From assembly GCA_025360715.1 (NCBI GenBank), contig JANYBS010000046.1:1-35683 (forward strand): DNA of 35,683 nucleotides, read 5' to 3'. Below the pieces are notes generated by a model. That model saw only the letters and a program-made list of their open reading frames with translations, was not told the DNA's origin and made no database searches. This document shows, piece after piece, positions 10,183-26,177 of this stretch (position 1 is its first letter; every line of letters starts with the position of its first letter). Origin of the DNA: Candidatus Eiseniibacteriota bacterium. Its GTDB lineage: Bacteria; Eisenbacteria; RBG-16-71-46. The translations under genes were made by a program, and so were the position numbers.

Positions 10183-10479
10183 TTATGTTCGGGGTAGCGA
10201 AGCGCGACGGTCTGCATCGATCGCAGACCTCGCGTCGGCGCCCAACTCGGTCGCTACCTCCTTGACCGTGTCGGTGACATTCTCGCGGATGTCCTGAATC
10301 GACCGGCCCGCGTCGTTGCCCAAGCGCTGCGCCACCGAGCTGAGCTTGCGGCGCGTCTGCTCCCCACTCGCGGGGGCCATCAGAAGCGCGATCGCGGCGC
10401 CGACCACTGCACCCAGGGCGAAACCGATGAGCGGGTTCAGGTTCATGCCATCATTCTTGGACTGCTTCATGTCATTCAT
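10183..10479 (-). CDS. YtxH-like membrane-anchored small protein
   Basis: The product has 98 residues. ATG at 10479 is preceded by GGAG at 9 nt; a second ATG at 10470 is a less likely start. One transmembrane segment (PLIGFALGAVVGAAIALLMA) is followed by the family signature PASGEQTRRKLSS and a polar helical tail (SIQDIRENVTDTVKEVATEL). This is the YtxH family layout, in which a short glycine-rich anchor carries a cytoplasmic coiled helix. Its start overlaps the end of the DUF948 gene by 8 nt, repeating the ytxG-ytxH pairing of Bacillus, where the genes are general-stress responsive. Molecular function is unknown. Confidence 0.85.
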   Translation of the reverse strand: MNDMKQSKNDGMNLNPLIGFALGAVVGAAIALLMAPASGEQTRRKLSSVAQRLGNDAGRSIQDIRENVTDTVKEVATELGADARSAIDADRRASLPRT

Positions 10480-10885
10480 CGTCGTGGGCTCCGTGATTCG
10501 AGAAGGGCTGCGACTGCATACGGCGGCTCCAAAGCGAGGCAAGACGGACAGCGCCGGCACGTACACCTCGCGCAACTGCGGCGACGGCGAATACAGGCTC
10601 CTCGACCTCATCGAGAAGCACATGCGAGAGACTGGTCACTCGGACGCTCAGGCGTTCCAGGCCCGTCACCGCCCTTTGCGCCGGCATGACGACTTCACGG
10701 ATCGAGACCAGAAGTGCTTGGGTCTCCATCGCGATGCGTTCGATCTGCGCCATCGATTGTTCGGCGGTGGCCGTCAGGCGCGCGGCCGCCTGTCCGACAC
10801 GGACCATGGCCACCGATGTCACGGCGACAAGGGCCACGAAGGAAAGAGTTACAACCACGATGCAGATCTGGACCAAAGGCGTCAT
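10472..10885 (-). CDS. DUF948 (YtxG-like) membrane protein
   Basis: The product has 137 residues starting MTPLVQICIVVVTLSFVALV, one N-terminal membrane anchor. A long helix follows (QAAARLTATAEQSMAQIERI and on to LERLSVRVTSLSHVLLDEVE), typical of DUF948. GAGAGG lies 6 nt before the ATG at 10885. It pairs with the YtxH gene through an 8-nt overlap. The 135-bp gap to the AI-2E gene upstream is the largest inside the block, so a promoter of its own is possible, though none is obvious. An upstream extension of the frame to 11020 lacks coding character. Confidence 0.78.
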   Translation of the reverse strand: MTPLVQICIVVVTLSFVALVAVTSVAMVRVGQAAARLTATAEQSMAQIERIAMETQALLVSIREVVMPAQRAVTGLERLSVRVTSLSHVLLDEVEEPVFAVAAVARGVRAGAVRLASLWSRRMQSQPFSNHGAHDDE

Positions 10886-11020
10886 CGTGAACCTCTCGTA
10901 TTTCGGGGTGGCATCGCGATTCGGCGTGGGTCCGGCGCAGCGACCTGCCGCGCTGCGCTGTCTCTGCCGGCAGCTCACCGCAATAAGAGGGCCAACGGCG
11001 GGAGCCCCGCGGGCTGACAT

Positions 11021-12103
11021 TCACGGGACCCGTTGCGAGGCGGTGCTGTCGAGTCCCTCGGCGGGAACAGTCGCAAGGGCGCCGATGATCGCTTGTAAGC
11101 CCGCAACGACCGGGAGCGCGAGCAGCGCGCCGCCGGGACCCAGCACCTTTGCTCCGGCAAGGACGCTCACAGTGACCACGAACGGATGCATGCGCAGCTG
11201 CCGACCCAGGACTCGAGGCGCGATGAACGTGCCGATGGTCCAGTTGAGGGCGACGTAGATCGCGAGACCGAACCACGCCTCGAAGGGGCTCACACTCCAA
11301 CCTGCGATCCCGATCGCAAGCGCGGTCACCGAGAAGCCCAAGTACGGCAGCAGTTCCGCGAGCCCTGCGAGGAGCGCGAGCACGAGCGCCGCAGGATGTT
11401 GTGCGATCGCCAGCCCCGCTCCCACCGCAGTGGCGGTGACGGCACAGACGATGGCCTGTCCGCGCACGTACCGCTGCAGCGACCGGCCCACGGCGCTGCC
11501 CAGACGTGTGATCTCGGGGCGAGCTTCCTCGGGCGCCAGGCGCATCACACTCACGAACACGGCATCGGATTCCGCCAGGAGATAGAACGAGAGGAGTGGC
11601 AGAAGCGCGAAGCTCAGCAGTTGGCCCAATGCGCCGGCGGCGCCGTGCGCCACGGTGCCACCCACATGCTGCAAGATGCGAGGCGCCTCGTCCTGCAGGC
11701 TCGCGAGTGCCGGGTCAAGCCATGGACTCAACTGGCGCTCCACGCCGAACGAGCGCAGGTCCGAGACGATCTTCGCGAAAACCACGGGTGTGCTCGCGGC
11801 AAGGTGCGCGAGTTCGACACCAAGCCGGGGGATCGCGAGCACGATCGCCGATACGAAGACCGCCATGACGAACGCCATCACGATCGCCGCGACGACGCTC
11901 CGGGGCAGCCGTCGTCCCCGCGGATCGCGGATACGCTCCACCGCGGTGATCGCCGGTAGCAGCGCGTAGGCCAGCAGAATGGAGTAGCCCACGAGCACCG
12001 CCAAGTCGCGCAGGACCCACACGGTCAGCGCGAACATGGCCACGATCATCGCGAGTGTCACGCGCGCGGAAGCAAACGTGCGCTTTATACGCCGATGGGC
12101 CAT
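11021..12103 (-). CDS. AI-2E family transporter (PerM/YdgG-like)
   Basis: The product has 360 residues with about eight hydrophobic segments in the arrangement of AI-2E permeases. Two N-terminal helices (TLAMIVAMFALTVWVLRDL; YSILLAYALLPAI) are followed by a helix pair, an extracellular segment (DLRSFGVERQLSPWLDPAL) and FALLPLLSFYLLAESD. The conserved C-terminal block includes LLPYLGFSVTALAIGIAG, NWTIGTFIAPRVLGRQL and HPFVVTVSVLAGAKVLGPGG. Family members export small molecules or act as ion antiporters, and the substrate here is unknown. The ATG at 12103 lies 4 nt after the TPR lipoprotein stop. A longer frame to 12211 would overlap that gene. Confidence 0.88.
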   Translation of the reverse strand: MAHRRIKRTFASARVTLAMIVAMFALTVWVLRDLAVLVGYSILLAYALLPAITAVERIRDPRGRRLPRSVVAAIVMAFVMAVFVSAIVLAIPRLGVELAHLAASTPVVFAKIVSDLRSFGVERQLSPWLDPALASLQDEAPRILQHVGGTVAHGAAGALGQLLSFALLPLLSFYLLAESDAVFVSVMRLAPEEARPEITRLGSAVGRSLQRYVRGQAIVCAVTATAVGAGLAIAQHPAALVLALLAGLAELLPYLGFSVTALAIGIAGWSVSPFEAWFGLAIYVALNWTIGTFIAPRVLGRQLRMHPFVVTVSVLAGAKVLGPGGALLALPVVAGLQAIIGALATVPAEGLDSTASQRVP

Positions 12104-12107
12104 GACC

Positions 12108-12572
12108 TCACTTTGGTGCGCGCTCGACTTCGGCGAGCGTCGAGCGGTAAAGCGAATCGTGCGCACCACCCGCGGCGACCGCGCGTTGGGCCCAGGCGCG
12201 AGCCTCTGCATGAAGCCGCCGCTGACGCAGCAAGGCGATCGCCAGATTATTCATGGCATCGGCATCCGATGCGGAGTCCCGCAGGGCCCGGCGATATGTG
12301 CGCTCGGCCGCCGACCAGCGCTCCTGCGACGCCTGGATGTTCCCAAGATTGACCCGGGTGCGACTCTGGTGGGGTTGAAGACGCAGGGAGCGCCGGTATT
12401 CCTTCTCGGCCAACGCGCTCTGACCCGTGCGCTCATAGGCAACGCCAAGGTCGTTGTGCTCGCTTGCGTCGAGCGGGTCGTGCAGCACGACCAGATGCGC
12501 GCAACTGGTGAGCGACAGACACAGGAACGCACCAGCCAGTCCGCAGACCACACGCATGCCGGTCGTCGTCAT
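12108..12572 (-). CDS. TPR lipoprotein, partner of the C39 peptidase
   Basis: The product has 154 residues. A lipoprotein signal (MRVVCGLAGAFLCLSLTSC, lipidated Cys24) is followed by about three tetratricopeptide repeats: DASEHNDLGVAYERTGQSAL, SRTRVNLGNIQASQERWSAA and DADAMNNLAIALLRQRRL. It is probably a periplasmic protein-interaction module anchored to a membrane. The ATG overlaps the stop of the upstream C39 peptidase gene by 4 nt (ATGA), a sign of translational coupling and equal output. In some PA2778-type peptidases I recall TPRs attached to the peptidase itself, so here the two modules seem to be split into adjacent genes. Confidence 0.85.
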   Translation of the reverse strand: MTTTGMRVVCGLAGAFLCLSLTSCAHLVVLHDPLDASEHNDLGVAYERTGQSALAEKEYRRSLRLQPHQSRTRVNLGNIQASQERWSAAERTYRRALRDSASDADAMNNLAIALLRQRRLHAEARAWAQRAVAAGGAHDSLYRSTLAEVERAPK

Positions 12573-16661: not shown

Positions 16662-17210
16662 TCATCGTGCGCAGGACTCGGCTTGGGCGCGTTCCTCCGC
16701 GCGAGTACGCACGCGAAGCGCGATCAGGTCGAGGAGCGAGATGACCAGAGCCGTTCGCCACGCCCCGAATATCAACGAGCCGCTCAGAAGCTCGATGACG
16801 ACGGCGCAGTAGTTCGGATGGCGCATATGCGCATAGGGCCCGGTGCGCACGAGTGGGCGTCCGGGTTCGACCCAGATCCCCACGCTCCAACGCGGTCCCA
16901 GCGCGTGCACGGCCGAATACCTCAACGCCTGCGCGGCGAGCCAGAGTGCGAGCCACAACGGCCACGCGAGACCCGGGCGTGCGCCGAGGAAGACGACTTC
17001 AAGGACGAGTGCGATGGGATAGAGCACATGTACGGCGACGAGAAGCGGGAAGTGCCGGGCGCCGTGCTCGATCGCGCCGGCAGCGCGAAGTCCGCGGGTA
17101 TTCACGCTTGAGACGTGGAGCTCGACGATGCGTTGCACGATGACCACCGCGATGAACAGGGCCAGCCAGCCGCCACTCGCCAGCGATCCAGAATACGTGC
17201 CCGGACTCAT
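16662..17210 (-). CDS. Isoprenylcysteine-methyltransferase-like alkylpyrone O-methyltransferase
   Basis: The product has 182 residues with about five hydrophobic segments. The catalytic signature of the ICMT/phospholipid methyltransferase family lies at the C-terminal side: GRPLVRTGPYAHMRHPNYCA followed by VVIELLSGSLIFGAW. The His-Pro-Asn-Tyr and Glu positions of the SAM and substrate site are present. Its ATG overlaps the stop of the type III polyketide synthase by 4 nt (ATGA). This pairing is well known: in Bacillus subtilis BpsB methylates the pyrones made by BpsA. The likely job here is therefore O-methylation of a long-chain alkylpyrone in the membrane. Product chain length cannot be predicted. 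Confidence 0.85.
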   Translation of the reverse strand: MSPGTYSGSLASGGWLALFIAVVIVQRIVELHVSSVNTRGLRAAGAIEHGARHFPLLVAVHVLYPIALVLEVVFLGARPGLAWPLWLALWLAAQALRYSAVHALGPRWSVGIWVEPGRPLVRTGPYAHMRHPNYCAVVIELLSGSLIFGAWRTALVISLLDLIALRVRTRAEERAQAESCAR

Positions 17211-18301
17211 GCTGCACCTTCGAGCAGGACGAATTCCGAGCAGAAGCCAGGGCCCAGCGCCGCCATGAGCGCCAGCTCGCCGGGTTGGATCTGAAGTGAT
17301 GCCAGAAAGCGCTCGAGGACGAACAAGCAGGAAGGCGACGACATGTTGCCGTGTTCGCGAAGTACATCTCGCGCATGCCGCAGTGCATCGGACTCGCATT
17401 CAAGGGCCTCGGCGTAAGCGCGCAGCACCTTGACGCCGCCGGGATGGACGACCATGTGCGCGATGTCGGCCACACGGAGCCCACGTGTCTCAAGGAACGC
17501 CCGGAGGCTGGGACCGAGCCGGGCGCGGACGATGCTGGGGATGTCCTGCGAGAACACGACGTGCAGTCCCTCGCAGTCGACCTCCCAACCCATGACATCG
17601 ACCGAGTCCCGCCAGAGCGTGCTCGCCGACGCGATGACACGCACCTCGCCTCGCGGAACCGGGATGGCGGTCGCAACGTCTGCGCCCACGACGACAGCGG
17701 CCGCAGCGCCATCCGCAAACAGCGAAGCTGCGACTAGATTCCGCTTGGAGGTATCGCCATGCTGGAACGTGAGACTGCAAAGCTCGAGCGCGATGAACAG
17801 TACGCGCGCGGTGGGATCGGCCAGCGCCACCTCGCGCGCGCGAGCCAATCCGGCGACGCCGCCGGCACAGCCCAATCCCCATATCGGGGTGCGGCGGATA
17901 TCCGAGCGGAAATCCATCACGCCGGCGATCCGCGCTTCGATGCTCGGCGTGGCGATCCCGGTCGACGAGACGAACACCACGTGATCGACATCCGAGCCCC
18001 GCAGGCCGGCCCGATCCAATGCTTTTTGGCCGGCCTCGCACGCCAGATGCTGGGCGTCGATGATGTAGCGGTCGTTCTTCTCGCCGAACGTGTGAGGCTC
18101 GTCGAACCATGTCAGCGGCACGCACACGTGCCTCGTGTCGATGCGGGCGTGATCGAACACCTTGATCAGGGCCGGTGCCGCCGCCAACGTCCCCGAGAAC
18201 AACCGCTGCGCGAGTCCTTGCACATCGGACTGCCGAACCACGAAAGCTGGCGATGCCGTAGCCAAAGCGATCATCCGGGGCTGCGCGATGGGTGAGGCCA
18301 T
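17207..18301 (-). CDS. Type III polyketide synthase (BpsA/chalcone-synthase-like)
   Basis: The product has 364 residues, normal for the family. The Cys-His-Asn catalytic triad is visible: Cys145 in IWGLGCAGGVAGLARA, His286 in MVVHPGGVKVL and Asn319 in REHGNMSSPSCLFVL, with the late GPGFCSEFVLL motif. The enzyme condenses a fatty acyl starter with malonyl-CoA to tri- or tetraketide pyrones or resorcinols. ATG at 18301 is chosen because GGGAG sits about 7 nt upstream; a frame extension to 18352 lacks a ribosome site. It is 4-nt overlapped with the methyltransferase and 47 nt downstream of a coiled-coil lipoprotein gene, so the three probably form one operon. Confidence 0.92.
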   Translation of the reverse strand: MASPIAQPRMIALATASPAFVVRQSDVQGLAQRLFSGTLAAAPALIKVFDHARIDTRHVCVPLTWFDEPHTFGEKNDRYIIDAQHLACEAGQKALDRAGLRGSDVDHVVFVSSTGIATPSIEARIAGVMDFRSDIRRTPIWGLGCAGGVAGLARAREVALADPTARVLFIALELCSLTFQHGDTSKRNLVAASLFADGAAAAVVVGADVATAIPVPRGEVRVIASASTLWRDSVDVMGWEVDCEGLHVVFSQDIPSIVRARLGPSLRAFLETRGLRVADIAHMVVHPGGVKVLRAYAEALECESDALRHARDVLREHGNMSSPSCLFVLERFLASLQIQPGELALMAALGPGFCSEFVLLEGAA

Positions 18302-18348
18302 GCATGGACTCCCGAGGAAAGTGGCCGGTGAAAGGTCCGAATCGGACT

Positions 18349-18891
18349 TCAATACCGCTTGGGCCCAAGTGCAGCCGGCGCCGCCGCGGCCTTACGGAGC
18401 GCGAGGGAGCTCTCCGCGATCGAGCCCATAGCGCGGCGGGTCCTGGCACGAAGCCGGTCGATGCGTGTGTCCACATCGTCAAGCGCTGGCGAGAGGCCTT
18501 CACGCATGTCGTTTAGGTCATCCCCGCCCGCTTGTTGGACGAATGCAAGCGAGCGAGCAGCGGCTTCCAGACGATACTCAACCTCTGCCACTTCATGCAG
18601 CAGCACATCGTCCATCGGCTGCCGTGACGCGGCCCACGAGTGGCGAAGGGCTTTCAGGCGCGCGCGCGAACGCGCGAGATGCGCCGATGCCGCCTGCTCC
18701 ACCACATGCGAATCACTCTCGTGGTGCGCGAGCAGAGGCGTGATCGCACTCGACTCCGCGTCGTTGGAGCAGCCGCTCGCGCCGATGACGAGCCCGAGGA
18801 TCGCCAACGCGATCAAAGCCCAATGCGCAAGCCTGCTCAACCCGCTCACCGCCTTCCGCGAATCCAGTCCGTGGCGCCACCATTCGAGCAT
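18349..18891 (-). CDS. Coiled-coil lipoprotein of unknown function
   Basis: The product has up to 180 residues. A hydrophobic stretch (AHWALIALAILGLVIGASGC) ends in a lipobox with Cys41. A long Ala/Arg/Glu-rich helical region follows (AHLARSRARLKALRHSW; LLHEVAEVEYRLEAAARSLA; DDVDTRIDRLRARTRRAMGS), predicted to form coiled coils. The N-terminus before the hydrophobic stretch is long for a lipoprotein signal. A GTG at 18849 with GGAAGG just upstream would give a more normal one. I do not recognise a family. Its position 47 nt ahead of the polyketide synthase suggests a shared transcript, but there is no evident link to pyrone synthesis. Confidence 0.68.
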   Translation of the reverse strand: MLEWWRHGLDSRKAVSGLSRLAHWALIALAILGLVIGASGCSNDAESSAITPLLAHHESDSHVVEQAASAHLARSRARLKALRHSWAASRQPMDDVLLHEVAEVEYRLEAAARSLAFVQQAGGDDLNDMREGLSPALDDVDTRIDRLRARTRRAMGSIAESSLALRKAAAAPAALGPKRY

Positions 18892-19184: not shown

Positions 19185-19463
19185 TCAGAGGCGCAGACGG
19201 TTGTCGAGCGTCTTCAAGCTCACGCCAAGGATCCGGGCCGCGCGTTTCTTGTCGCCGCCGCACGGTTCGAGCGTCGTCAGGATCAGGACTCGCTCGGCCG
19301 CAGCGCGCTCCACCCAATGCTGCACAGTGGTATTGAACGTCACGATGCCGTCATCGACCAGCATGCAGATCTTGGATTCATCGACGCTGGGCTCCCAGCG
19401 CAGCTCGGCCAGGACATCCGCCTTGAGCTGCAAGTCCGTATTCACATCCACAGAGGTCTTCAT
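19185..19463 (-). CDS. Half BON domain fused to an NtrC-type DNA-binding helix-turn-helix
   Basis: The product has 92 residues in one unbroken frame; AGGA lies about 7 nt before the ATG. Residues about 9-57 match the first two thirds of a BON domain: LQLKADVLAELRWEPSVDES and DDGIVTFNTTVQHWVERAAA. The usual second half is missing. From about residue 58 the sequence is instead the C-terminal Fis-like helix-turn-helix of sigma-54-dependent response regulators (VLILTTLEPCGGDKKRAARI, then LGVSLKTLDNRLRL). The join falls where both families carry an ERA/ERV-like segment, as expected from a deletion between two genes through short homology. The product lacks a signal peptide, unlike most BON proteins. 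It could be a small DNA-binding protein or a non-functional scar. Confidence 0.65.
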   Translation of the reverse strand: MKTSVDVNTDLQLKADVLAELRWEPSVDESKICMLVDDGIVTFNTTVQHWVERAAAERVLILTTLEPCGGDKKRAARILGVSLKTLDNRLRL

Positions 19464-20059: not shown

Positions 20060-20345
20060 TCAGACCGAGATCGCGGCTGAGAACATCGCACCCTCGAACT
20101 CACCGCCGGAGAAGCTATCGGTGACCGGGTAGTCCTTGTCCTGCTGATGCAAGAACTCTGCCTTCATCATCAATTTCGACGTCAAGAAGAGCCCGCCACC
20201 GATCTGCAGGCGATCGACCGTCATGTCGTTCGTCATGGCGAACATGCGGCCCTTGGCGATGACCTATCAGCCTGCGACATCGAACGTGTCATGGCAGCCA
20301 TGGAACTTCACGAACGGGTTCACGACATTCGCGGTGATCTCTCTG
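20060..20345 (-). pseudogene. C-terminal remnant of a porin-like outer-membrane protein
   Basis: One frame gives ITANVVNPFVKFHGCHDTFD and stops at about 20,267. The next frame gives VIAKGRMFAMTNDMTVDRLQ then IGGGLFLTSKLMMKAEFLHQ, and ends in EFEGAMFSAAISV, a typical last strand. Joined, these are the final strands of a large bacterial porin-like barrel. The more N-terminal pieces of what looks like the same protein are found in frame inside the YceI-containing gene just upstream. The interruption by a frameshift and the missing middle mark it as a pseudogene. Confidence 0.6.
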
Positions 20346-21228
20346 GAAAGCCGGGCTGGATATCGCTATTCCATGCCTGCGCCCTGACCGTGGATGTCGT
20401 GTTCGGTGGCACGTCGAAATACGGCGATCCAACACGGCTGCCGATGAGCGGGTTCTGGTTCACTTCGGCGATCACGTTCGGCGTCGCCGAGTTGGTGTGA
20501 TGGTGTGCTTGGAACTGCAGAGTGAAGGCGCCATCCCAATTCAACCGCATGCCCGTGTCGGCGACACCCACTTCCTTGGGAGGCTCGAACGGATTCAACG
20601 AACGTGAATCATCCAAGCCGAATTCCGACATCATCAGGGCTTCACTGCCTTCGAACCACTCGCCGCCCTCACCCGTATAGGCGCGTGCCGCTATCCTGAC
20701 GTCCTTCGCCACGCCCGAGACGGTGAGCACGCCTTCCATGCGGATCGCCAAAGTGTCGGCCTGCGCTGCAGATGTCACGGCATAGCGCTGCATGTGAAAG
20801 TGGATCTCGGGGCAGCGATCGCTCTGCAGGGCCTTGAGCATCTTCTTCTCGAAGCCCTTGCTAACCGCGCGGAAAGCCCTCACGGGGATCGCCACTTCGA
20901 GCCCATCGAACGCATGACCGCGGATCAGCGACTCGAACGCAGCGCTGCTGGCCGGCTCGATGTGCCTGTTGGCCCGCATGAGTTCCAGCTTCACATGGCT
21001 CGTACGGCACTCCCAGTCATGGAGGGTCGAGGTTCCGTCCATCCAGAGTTCGCTCCCCGCCGTCGTGCTCATCGCCGAGGCGTTTTGGGCGGGACCCGCG
21101 TTGCCGTGGGCGACGGTGATGACCCCGATCGCAAATAGAACAAAGAGGAGCATCAGGACGCCAGCCCACTCTTGGGAGAACCGGTGGCGCCAATGTGCGT
21201 ATTGCGGCTTGCTGCTGTGGTCACGCAT
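20320..21228 (-). CDS. YceI-like domain protein running into porin fragments (chimera)
   Basis: The frame has 302 codons; AGGAG lies 9 nt before the ATG. Residues 22-41 are a membrane anchor or signal (WAGVLMLLFVLFAIGVITVA). Residues about 58-205 are a YceI lipocalin-like domain that in relatives binds polyisoprenoids in the periplasm: ELWMDGTSTLHDWECRTSHV, GLEVAIPVRAFRAVSKGFEK, MEGVLTVSGVAKDVRI and a final MSEFGL. The normal YceI end is absent. Residues about 206-261 (SLNPFEPPKEVGVADTGMRL; WDGAFTLQFQ; NQNPLI) look like the N-terminal part of a porin. Residues 262-294 (GSRVGSPYFDV; AWNSDIQPGF) look like a much later part of it, after which the frame breaks. The YceI domain may still function. 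Confidence 0.72.
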   Translation of the reverse strand: MRDHSSKPQYAHWRHRFSQEWAGVLMLLFVLFAIGVITVAHGNAGPAQNASAMSTTAGSELWMDGTSTLHDWECRTSHVKLELMRANRHIEPASSAAFESLIRGHAFDGLEVAIPVRAFRAVSKGFEKKMLKALQSDRCPEIHFHMQRYAVTSAAQADTLAIRMEGVLTVSGVAKDVRIAARAYTGEGGEWFEGSEALMMSEFGLDDSRSLNPFEPPKEVGVADTGMRLNWDGAFTLQFQAHHHTNSATPNVIAEVNQNPLIGSRVGSPYFDVPPNTTSTVRAQAWNSDIQPGFPERSPRMS

Positions 21229-23038: not shown

Positions 23039-25363
23039 TCACTCGAAGATGCTCAGCACCGGCTGCATGACCTCGAATCGCGCCGGGAACAACTCGCCCT
23101 GTGCGGGATCGGCGAAGAGCGCTACGTGATCCTGGGGCGCGAACGCGCGCTGCAGACGCGCCGCGTAGTTGCGCACGAGCACGCGCAGGTAGTGCGCCAC
23201 GTCGTAGTCGGCCGCCTGCGTAGTGCGCTCGCGCACGAGCCCCGCGCCGCCCTCGTGCGTGCGGTAGACGCGCACGCGTTCACCGCGGCGCCAGCGCGCG
23301 CGACCGGCGGCGAGCATGGCCTCGTAGGGTAGTTCGCGCCGCGCGTGACGCGTGGCCTCGTACTGTTCGGGCGTCTTCGTGAGTCGCACGTGCGTCGCCA
23401 CATCGTTCGTCGTATAAGTGCGCGCACGCAGCGCCATCACCGTGTCCACATAGGCCGCGCGCACGCCGGCCACATCGCGCTCGAGCAGCGCGCGTACCGC
23501 GCGGCGCAGGAACGCTTCGCCGAACGGCTCAAGCCGGCTCGATCGGAACGCGACGCCTCGGAGAGTGAGCTTGCCGTCGTAGCCCAGCAGCGCGTAGTTC
23601 TTCGGCTCGTGCGACAGCATCGCCGCATAGCGCCCTTCGAACTCCAGAGTCACGAGCGCAGGCAGCAGCGCCGCGACCTCCGCGACGGCCCGGCGCTCAT
23701 CGGCCTCGCTCCAGTCGGGCGGCACCGCGAAATACACGCCATCGGTATCGGCTTCGAGACGCGTCACGCCGCGCGCTTCGAGCTCCGCGCAAATGCGCGC
23801 GAGCATCTCGCGGCCGCGGCGCGTGACCTCGTTCGCAGCATGCACGTCGGCGAAGCGCGTGAGGTCGCCACCGGCGGCCAGGTAGCCGTACGCCGTATTC
23901 ACCACGAGCTTCATCGCAGCGGACGTGGCCTCGTGTGTGAAGCGTTCTCCCGAGCCCGCGGGAGCGGCCTTGGCCGCAGCCTTCGCCGCAAGGCGGCGCT
24001 CGACAAGCGCATCGACCAGCGCGAGCATCGCTCCCAGCGTGTCACGCTTGGGGCCGATCCGGAACGCGCGCATGAGTGACGGGTACAGGCTCGCGACGTC
24101 TGCCTTGACGACGCGGTCCGCTACGCCGCACGCGAACAGGTGCAGCGCCGCCCCCGTGTGCGTGGTGCCGTCATTCGGCTCATGCGCGGGCAAGGCCTGA
24201 CCCGCGCGCAGGTACGCGCGCACGAGCAGCGGATCGATCACGCCCGTTGCCGCGCCCGCGTCGGCGAGCCGCTCGTAGCGCCGCGGCGCGATCTGCGCCA
24301 GCGCATACGCAGCGCCGCCCAGCAGGCGCGCAAGACCCGCGACCTCGACCACGTCGGCGGTCGCGTAGCGGCGCACGCGGTCGGGGTCGCTGCGGAAGGT
24401 GGTGTGGATCTGGTCGCCCGGGATGAGCACGCGATCGCTCGCGGCAAGCCCGAAGTGCCGCGCGACCGCCTTGAGTCCATGCCCGGGCAGTTCGCGGATC
24501 GCGAAATCGTAGCGCCGCACGGCATCGAGCGTATCGATGCACTCGCGCCCGGGGATCACGAGGCGCTTGACGTCGCGTGCCGCCGCGCGTTCGCGCAGGC
24601 CCAGCCCCGGAAGGCGGCCCAACGGCAATGACACGCCCAGGCGCCTCGCTCGTTCTGCAAGAAACGGCAGGTCGAAGCCGAACAGATTGTGATTCTCGAT
24701 CACGTCGGGATCCGACGCGGTGAAGCTGGCGACGAAGCGCCGGATCAGATCGGCTTCATGCGCGTCGTCGTCACGCGCGCTCTCGAGCAGCTCTTCGCGG
24801 CCGTCGGGATGGCGGATCGCGATGAGGAAGATGCGGCTCGCGCTGGCCGCCAGCCCAGTCGTCTCGAGGTCGAACTGCAGCCGGTGGAGCTGATCGAACG
24901 CGAGGTCGCGAAAGTACGTTCGACCGCTCGTGACCAGGTACTGCTCCTCGGGCGAGAGGAACAGCACATGTTCCTTGCCGAGTTCGCGCATACCGTCGGG
25001 CTCGCGCCCCAGCCGCCGCGCGGCACCGCGCAACAGTGCGCGCCGAAGCTTGCCTCCGTCGGCCGCCGTGACGAGGAACCGCAGCGCCCCCGGGCCCGTG
25101 AGTTCGCGGTAGGTAAACGTGGCGCGCGCATCGCCGTCGGGCATGAGGTCCGCGCCCAGATGCTCGAGGTCGCGCAGCGAATCGACCAGCGCCCAAGGCC
25201 GGAACGGCTCGATTTCGTGCACGAGCCGGCCGTCGGCCGGCAGGCGGCGCCACACCGAGGCGCGCCCGTCGGCATCGGCCCAGACCGAAACGATGCCCGG
25301 CGTCGCGTCCCAGCCCCAGAGTCCTTCCTGCAGCGCCGCCTCGGGCGCGTTCGGCGAGATCAT
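23039..25363 (-). CDS. Family B DNA polymerase with proofreading exonuclease
   Basis: The product has 774 residues, close to the length of E. coli Pol II. The exonuclease domain is complete: FDLETTG (Asp165, Glu167), NHNLFGFDLPFL (Asp231) and YATADV (Tyr333, Asp337). The polymerase motifs are also complete: motif A DVASLYPSLM (Asp422), motif B KLVVNTAYGYLA (Lys485, Asn489, Tyr492) and motif C EADTDGVYF (Asp539, Asp541). In motif C, Gly replaces the Ser usual after DTD. Both activities should therefore be functional, and a repair or translesion role is likely. The ATG at 25363 has no good ribosome site; upstream in-frame sequence to 26005 reads as noise. It is divergent from the DUF2087 gene. 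A 13-bp tandem duplication lies just before the start. Confidence 0.9.
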   Translation of the reverse strand: MISPNAPEAALQEGLWGWDATPGIVSVWADADGRASVWRRLPADGRLVHEIEPFRPWALVDSLRDLEHLGADLMPDGDARATFTYRELTGPGALRFLVTAADGGKLRRALLRGAARRLGREPDGMRELGKEHVLFLSPEEQYLVTSGRTYFRDLAFDQLHRLQFDLETTGLAASASRIFLIAIRHPDGREELLESARDDDAHEADLIRRFVASFTASDPDVIENHNLFGFDLPFLAERARRLGVSLPLGRLPGLGLRERAAARDVKRLVIPGRECIDTLDAVRRYDFAIRELPGHGLKAVARHFGLAASDRVLIPGDQIHTTFRSDPDRVRRYATADVVEVAGLARLLGGAAYALAQIAPRRYERLADAGAATGVIDPLLVRAYLRAGQALPAHEPNDGTTHTGAALHLFACGVADRVVKADVASLYPSLMRAFRIGPKRDTLGAMLALVDALVERRLAAKAAAKAAPAGSGERFTHEATSAAMKLVVNTAYGYLAAGGDLTRFADVHAANEVTRRGREMLARICAELEARGVTRLEADTDGVYFAVPPDWSEADERRAVAEVAALLPALVTLEFEGRYAAMLSHEPKNYALLGYDGKLTLRGVAFRSSRLEPFGEAFLRRAVRALLERDVAGVRAAYVDTVMALRARTYTTNDVATHVRLTKTPEQYEATRHARRELPYEAMLAAGRARWRRGERVRVYRTHEGGAGLVRERTTQAADYDVAHYLRVLVRNYAARLQRAFAPQDHVALFADPAQGELFPARFEVMQPVLSIFE

Positions 25364-25372
25364 GGCGGCGAG

Positions 25373-25398
25373 GATAGCCGAGATGGATAGCCGAGATG
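25373..25398. repeat. Tandem 13-bp duplication at the polymerase start
   Basis: GATAGCCGAGATG occurs at 25373-25385 and again at 25386-25398, ending 9 nt upstream of the polymerase ATG. It occupies the position of the expected ribosome site and leader of that gene. Confidence 0.6.
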
Positions 25399-25619
25399 GC
25401 GGCAGGCTGGCCCGGGCTGAGGTAGACTCTCCGCCGGGTCGGCAGACCACCCAGGCGTCGCCACGTGGTCCCGTGGGACCGCGAGCTGAACCTGCCGCGC
25501 AGCATCCCTTCTCGAGTCGCACCCGCGTATGCGGCGCGCGCCCGGCTGGCAAGATGGCGACCCCCGGCACCTGCGTCTTGCAGGCCATGAGCGCGCGTAC
25601 CGTCTTGCGAGGATGCGTC

Positions 25620-26177
25620 ATGCCCCGAGAGCCGATCCCCTTCGCCGTCGCTGACCTGAGTGTCTTCGCGCGCGCCCTGTCACGCGCACTCACCGCACGC
25701 GAGTCGGACGATCCACCAAGCCATGTCGAGATGCTGAACCTGCTCGCGCGCGCGTCCGGCCATCGCAATTTCCAGGCGCTGCGCGCGGCACACCGAGCAC
25801 CCGCGACGCCGCTCGCCGCCGAGGACCGCACGCCGCTGCCGCTGTCGCCGCATGCGCGCAAGGCGCTGCGGTTGTTCGACAGCCGCGACCGGATGACCCA
25901 GTGGCCGAGCCGCTTCGCCGTGCAACGGCTCGCGATGTGGATCCTGTGGAGCCGGTTCGAGCTACGCCGCGTGTACACCGAGAAGGAAGTCAACGCGGTG
26001 CTCAAGGCAGCGAACCTGTTCGAGGATCACGTCACGCTGAGGCGCGAACTCATCAATCACCGCCTGATGTCGCGCACGAGCGACTGCGCCGAGTATCGCA
26101 AGCTCGCCGCGCGACCTGACGAGGATGCGCGCGCGGTGCTGCACGCGTGGCGGGCACGAGCGCGAAAGGCACTTTGA
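25620..26177 (+). CDS. DUF2087 domain protein
   Basis: The product has 185 residues. ATG at 25620 has GAGG 7 nt upstream. Residues about 15-60 contain SHVEMLNLLARASGHRNFQA, a helical region often found ahead of this domain. Residues about 90-165 match DUF2087, with MTQWPSRFAVQRLAMWILWS, RFELRRVYTEKEVNAVLKAA and DHVTLRRELINHRLMSRTSD. That segment is a small winged-helix-like module whose proteins are often annotated as transcription-related. It is divergent from the polymerase gene across 256 bp, so the two may share control. A role in regulating that region is inference only. Confidence 0.82.
   Translation: MPREPIPFAVADLSVFARALSRALTARESDDPPSHVEMLNLLARASGHRNFQALRAAHRAPATPLAAEDRTPLPLSPHARKALRLFDSRDRMTQWPSRFAVQRLAMWILWSRFELRRVYTEKEVNAVLKAANLFEDHVTLRRELINHRLMSRTSDCAEYRKLAARPDEDARAVLHAWRARARKAL

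Follow-up and report, generated by a model that had tools for sequence, protein, structure and literature searches.

The window analyzed here, a stretch of 35,683 nucleotides of contig JANYBS010000046.1 from a Candidatus Eiseniibacteriota bacterium, encodes on its minus strand a short open reading frame (ORF) in which part of a BON domain is joined in frame to the C-terminal helix-turn-helix (HTH) of an NtrC-type sigma-54 response regulator. This ORF lies in a tract of damaged genes, the features of which are given below.

19185-19463, minus strand: chimeric ORF of 92 aa, with a BON N-terminus fused in frame to the HTH from the C-terminus of an NtrC-type regulator
19290-19463, minus strand: remaining 5' part of an OsmY-like multi-BON gene, covering residues 1-57 of about 223; intact relative at L097:5573-6241, minus strand
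19290-19299, minus strand: joint, GCC GAG CG, falling in AAE(R), from codon comparison with BON and NtrC relatives
19188-19298, minus strand: remaining 3' part of a sigma-54 response-regulator gene of the NtrC type, equal to residues 400-436 of 445 in L091
19615-20066, minus strand: SRPBCC (polyketide cyclase-like) pseudogene in two frames, with about 8 residues lost, an in-frame TAG and the C-terminus missing
20066-20344, minus strand: porin C-terminal remnant, out of frame with the N-terminal pieces, interrupted by TGA and TAG and lacking about 40 aa internally
20320-21228, minus strand: 302-aa chimeric ORF, consisting of YceI residues from about 14 to 190, porin 98-155 and porin 334-368 (G003 numbering), followed by a frameshift

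Elsewhere in the window, genes for an AI-2E transporter, a DUF948 protein and a YtxH protein stand in a row on the minus strand (10183-12211) and form a cluster of the cell-envelope/stress type. On the same strand, at 16662-18352, a type III polyketide synthase (PKS) gene adjoins a gene for an isoprenylcysteine methyltransferase (ICMT), and we take the two to be a likely alkylpyrone/alkylresorcinol pair; of the 20 genomes searched in the family, 11 have this type III PKS. On the plus strand, an Rfam COG3860 RNA (RF02940, 51 bits) was detected at 25436-25497, just 5' of a DUF2087 (COG3860) gene within ORF 25119-26177. Because this stretch overlaps ORF 23039-26005 (PolB family, minus strand) in its 5' part, the true start of the PolB-family ORF is probably located further in.

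Domain composition of the chimeric ORF

The ORF spans 92 codons from ATG to TGA. Its residues 54-91 match the Pfam HTH_8 domain of the Fis family (PF02954) with an E-value of 2.5e-10 and a score of 40.4 bits, above the curated cut-off of 22 bits, and the TGA directly follows this domain. Residues 10-59 match positions 2-51 of the 69-position BON profile (PF04972; E 4.7e-4), with a score of 20.8 bits that falls under the curated cut-off of 27 bits because the domain is cut, the profile match ending at position 51. A first-pass annotation of this DNA had divided the ORF into about 57 residues of BON and about 35 residues of a Fis-like HTH; Pfam and the comparison with relatives agree with this division, giving 57-59 and about 37 residues, respectively. 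The same annotation described the N-terminal portion as half a BON domain, and although the truncation holds, its extent was overstated, given that about 72% of the Pfam model is retained. The C-terminal part of the first BON domain and all of the second and third are missing. The receiver and AAA+ (Sigma54_activat) domains, both present in the intact relative L091, have no match in the 92 residues.

The start codon is kept, and AAGGA, a Shine-Dalgarno-like sequence, precedes the ATG by about 7 nt. By codon position, the GC content of the ORF resembles that of the genome's normal genes. A single-sequence structure model of the 92 residues had a mean pLDDT of 46 and no convincing fold, which is weak evidence either way.

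Parent genes in related genomes

The BON half was matched in a local search to a 223-aa triple-BON protein encoded at L097, from the same genus (51% over 49 aa, E 3.7e-14), the best NCBIfam match of which is OsmY, under the cut-off of that model. The HTH half is similar to the C-terminus of L091, a 445-aa protein of the same genus with receiver, AAA+ and HTH_8 domains (68% over 37 aa, E 9e-12). Both similarities far exceed what chance would give. Relatives keep the BON protein and the NtrC-type regulator as separate, complete genes. Among the loci fetched, there is no relative with the two genes adjacent on one strand; at L098, about 4 kb separates them and their strands are opposite. A duplicated NtrC gene of the same genome, on contig C142, was ruled out as the source of the HTH, the amino acid identity being 64% over just 39 residues.

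Both halves differ from their relatives at conserved positions. In the BON half, IGV is replaced by ICM and L(T/S)G by FNT, at positions that are invariant in the three relatives compared, with the loss of a glycine pair. In the HTH half, TLYNRL has become TLDNRL, with Asp in place of a Tyr that is invariant in the relatives compared.

Sequence at the joint

Over the joint, the codons in the window are GCG GCC GAG CGA GTC CTG ATC CTG. At the matching place, BON relatives have GCC GCC GAG (G002) and GCG GCC GAG (G012), and NtrC relatives have GCC GAG CGT CAC CTG ATT CTG (G008) and GCC GAG CGC CGG CTG ATC CTG (G015), the latter two sharing the longer GCC GAG CGY. The six bases GCCGAG are common to these BON and NtrC relatives in the same codon phase and are therefore expected in both parents. 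That the halves meet at a similar ERA/ERV segment, as noticed at first pass, is borne out by this comparison, which places the joint in AAE(R), at about 19290-19299.

Search for the same fusion in other genomes

In its own assembly (4.29 Mb in 253 contigs, 96% complete), the BON half was matched by the window alone, and there was no second fusion; the other eight matches fall within open frames 464-819 aa long, which is what the C-termini of complete regulators would give. A search of related genomes, suggested by the first-pass annotation, found the fusion in none of 20 genomes of the family, where matches were either BON-only (query residues 1-60) or HTH-only (query residues from about 50 to 92), and in none of 47 genomes of the phylum, searched with a stricter cut-off, where matches were likewise confined to one half or the other. 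A few weak matches in these searches begin earlier in the query, but these are in long open frames.

More widely, a search of a collection of 84,980 species with the fusion protein yielded 57 pattern hits, none of them a relative, and the exact 32-base joint had no match in this collection, from which near-identical genomes may be left out. Among plasmids, the highest query coverage was observed for Rhizobium (34.9% over residues 9-91) and Sphingobium (35-37%), largely on annotated BON proteins. These matches look like whole BON domains with the end weakly aligned to the HTH and are read as such, not as fusions. When the tract was searched as DNA within the genus, the NtrC tail alone was clearly above background.

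Damaged genes upstream of the chimera

Between 21.2 and 19.6 kb, the window contains genes for YceI, an outer-membrane porin and an SRPBCC protein in the order found in relatives, all of them broken. In G003 (same genus), G007 and G012, these genes form a compact, intact operon, with porin open frames of 460-514 aa. The 1.7 kb just upstream of the 92-codon ORF are interrupted by three internal stops and at least two frameshifts, three large deletions have removed further sequence, and the BON-HTH chimera starts 150 bases beyond the SRPBCC pseudogene. Sequencing error was ruled out as the source of this damage, as the missing stretches, of about 40, 135 and 175 residues, are too large for base-call errors. 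Three further genomes of the genus (G002, G004 and G005) have no YceI or SRPBCC match; therefore, the operon is dispensable, and its loss is tolerated in this lineage. About 0.8 kb downstream of the chimera, the type III PKS gene (17207-18352) retains its full length without interruption and has 62% identity to G005, indicating that the damage is local.

Within the 302-aa ORF, both the YceI/porin and the porin/porin joints are in frame. Together with the BON/HTH joint, this makes three large in-frame joints in the tract, slightly above chance; stepwise loss, with early deletions keeping the frame, is possible.

Origin of the chimera

The 92-aa ORF is, very probably, a lineage-specific pseudogene, a chimera left as the scar of a deletion. 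Of the options listed at first pass, this one is the best supported: the halves are separate in relatives, the fusion occurs in none of them, 1.7 kb of wreckage adjoins the ORF, and the joint carries sequence shared by both kinds of parent. In the ancestor, an NtrC-type response-regulator gene would have followed a multi-BON gene on the same strand, and each would have contained GCCGAG(CG), the BON gene in the helix codons of its first domain (..AAE..) and the regulator gene immediately ahead of the HTH (..AERxLILATLE). Deletion from one short copy to the other would have taken the rest of the BON gene along with about 90% of the regulator gene. The frame would have been kept because the two copies are in phase with each other, and the deletion may be seen as part of a broader decay of stress/envelope genes across 19.19-21.23 kb. 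What we infer is that the two genes once adjoined, that a deletion of this kind joined them and that function was lost; the homology of each part, the absence of the fusion from the other genomes searched, the damage to the neighbors and the sequence shared at the joint in relatives are observed. If made, the product is predicted from the missing domains to be incapable of acting as a BON lipid-binding protein or as a sigma-54 activator: with an incomplete BON fold and without the receiver and AAA+ domains, it would be fit for neither parental role.

Several observations count against a deletion scar, namely, the retained start, the Shine-Dalgarno-like site and the genome-like codon-position GC, along with the three in-frame large joints and the fetched relatives, none of which shows the two parent genes side by side on the same strand. 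We read the codon-position GC as a sign of recency rather than function.

It is quite unlikely that the BON and NtrC pieces lie apart in the living genome and were brought together by the metagenome assembler. The window is a single contig of a 253-contig assembly, and the exact joint is unmatched in the 84,980-species collection, with its possible omission of near-identical genomes, as would be the case for a mis-join; however, only about 6-8 bases are shared at the joint, which is short for such an error, several independent scars are present within one 2-kb tract, unlike a single mis-join, and the type III PKS gene that flanks the tract is unbroken.

Very unlikely, too, is a functional new small regulator, in which the truncated BON would serve as a module for dimerization or for a ligand, and the DNA sites of the old regulator would be bound by the Fis-type HTH. 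An open frame with a start and a Shine-Dalgarno-like site, an HTH_8 score above the curated cut-off and genome-like codon-position GC are compatible with such a protein, but the fusion is found in one genome only across all the searches described above, the BON fold is incomplete and has lost conserved glycines, the conserved Tyr of the HTH is replaced by Asp, pseudogenes lie all around and, as weak evidence, the structure model has no convincing fold. The first-pass annotation, which raised this option, also considered the combination of BON with a DNA-binding motif unusual; nothing in the present analysis supports a functional combination. Likewise very unlikely is co-option of the scar, with the 92-aa BON-fragment/Fis-HTH protein expressed and binding the former targets of the lost regulator; if true, a single deletion would have created a DNA-binding protein.

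Thus, the fusion probably represents ordinary gene decay, not a new regulator. As a deletion-scar pseudogene, the 92-aa ORF matters little beyond annotation, where an automatic pipeline could label it an HTH protein and the 302-aa ORF a YceI protein, both being deletion chimeras. It would also neatly illustrate how an in-frame domain fusion can arise from a short repeat that has the same codon phase in two genes, in a lineage apparently caught midway through the loss of an envelope-stress operon.

Comparison with known systems

Compared with OsmY/DolP-type multi-BON periplasmic proteins (PF04972), residues 1-57 of the ORF match the first BON domain of the L097 protein, whereas the end of that domain and the two BON domains that follow are absent and the conserved glycines are altered. 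Similarly, the ORF shares with NtrC/AtoC-type sigma-54 response regulators (PF00072, PF00158 and PF02954) their C-terminal Fis-type HTH, which takes up its last 37 residues, whereas the receiver, AAA+ and lid domains of these proteins are absent.

Deletion at short direct repeats is an established and well-documented process; in Haloquadratum walsbyi, for instance, many deletions have been found at direct repeats of 4-20 bp (PMC3119063). Although the pre-deletion state is inferred here from relatives in other species and not from a second strain, the BON-HTH chimera resembles these repeat-mediated deletions in combining a large deletion, a short stretch of shared bases where the ends meet and a pseudogene-rich tract.
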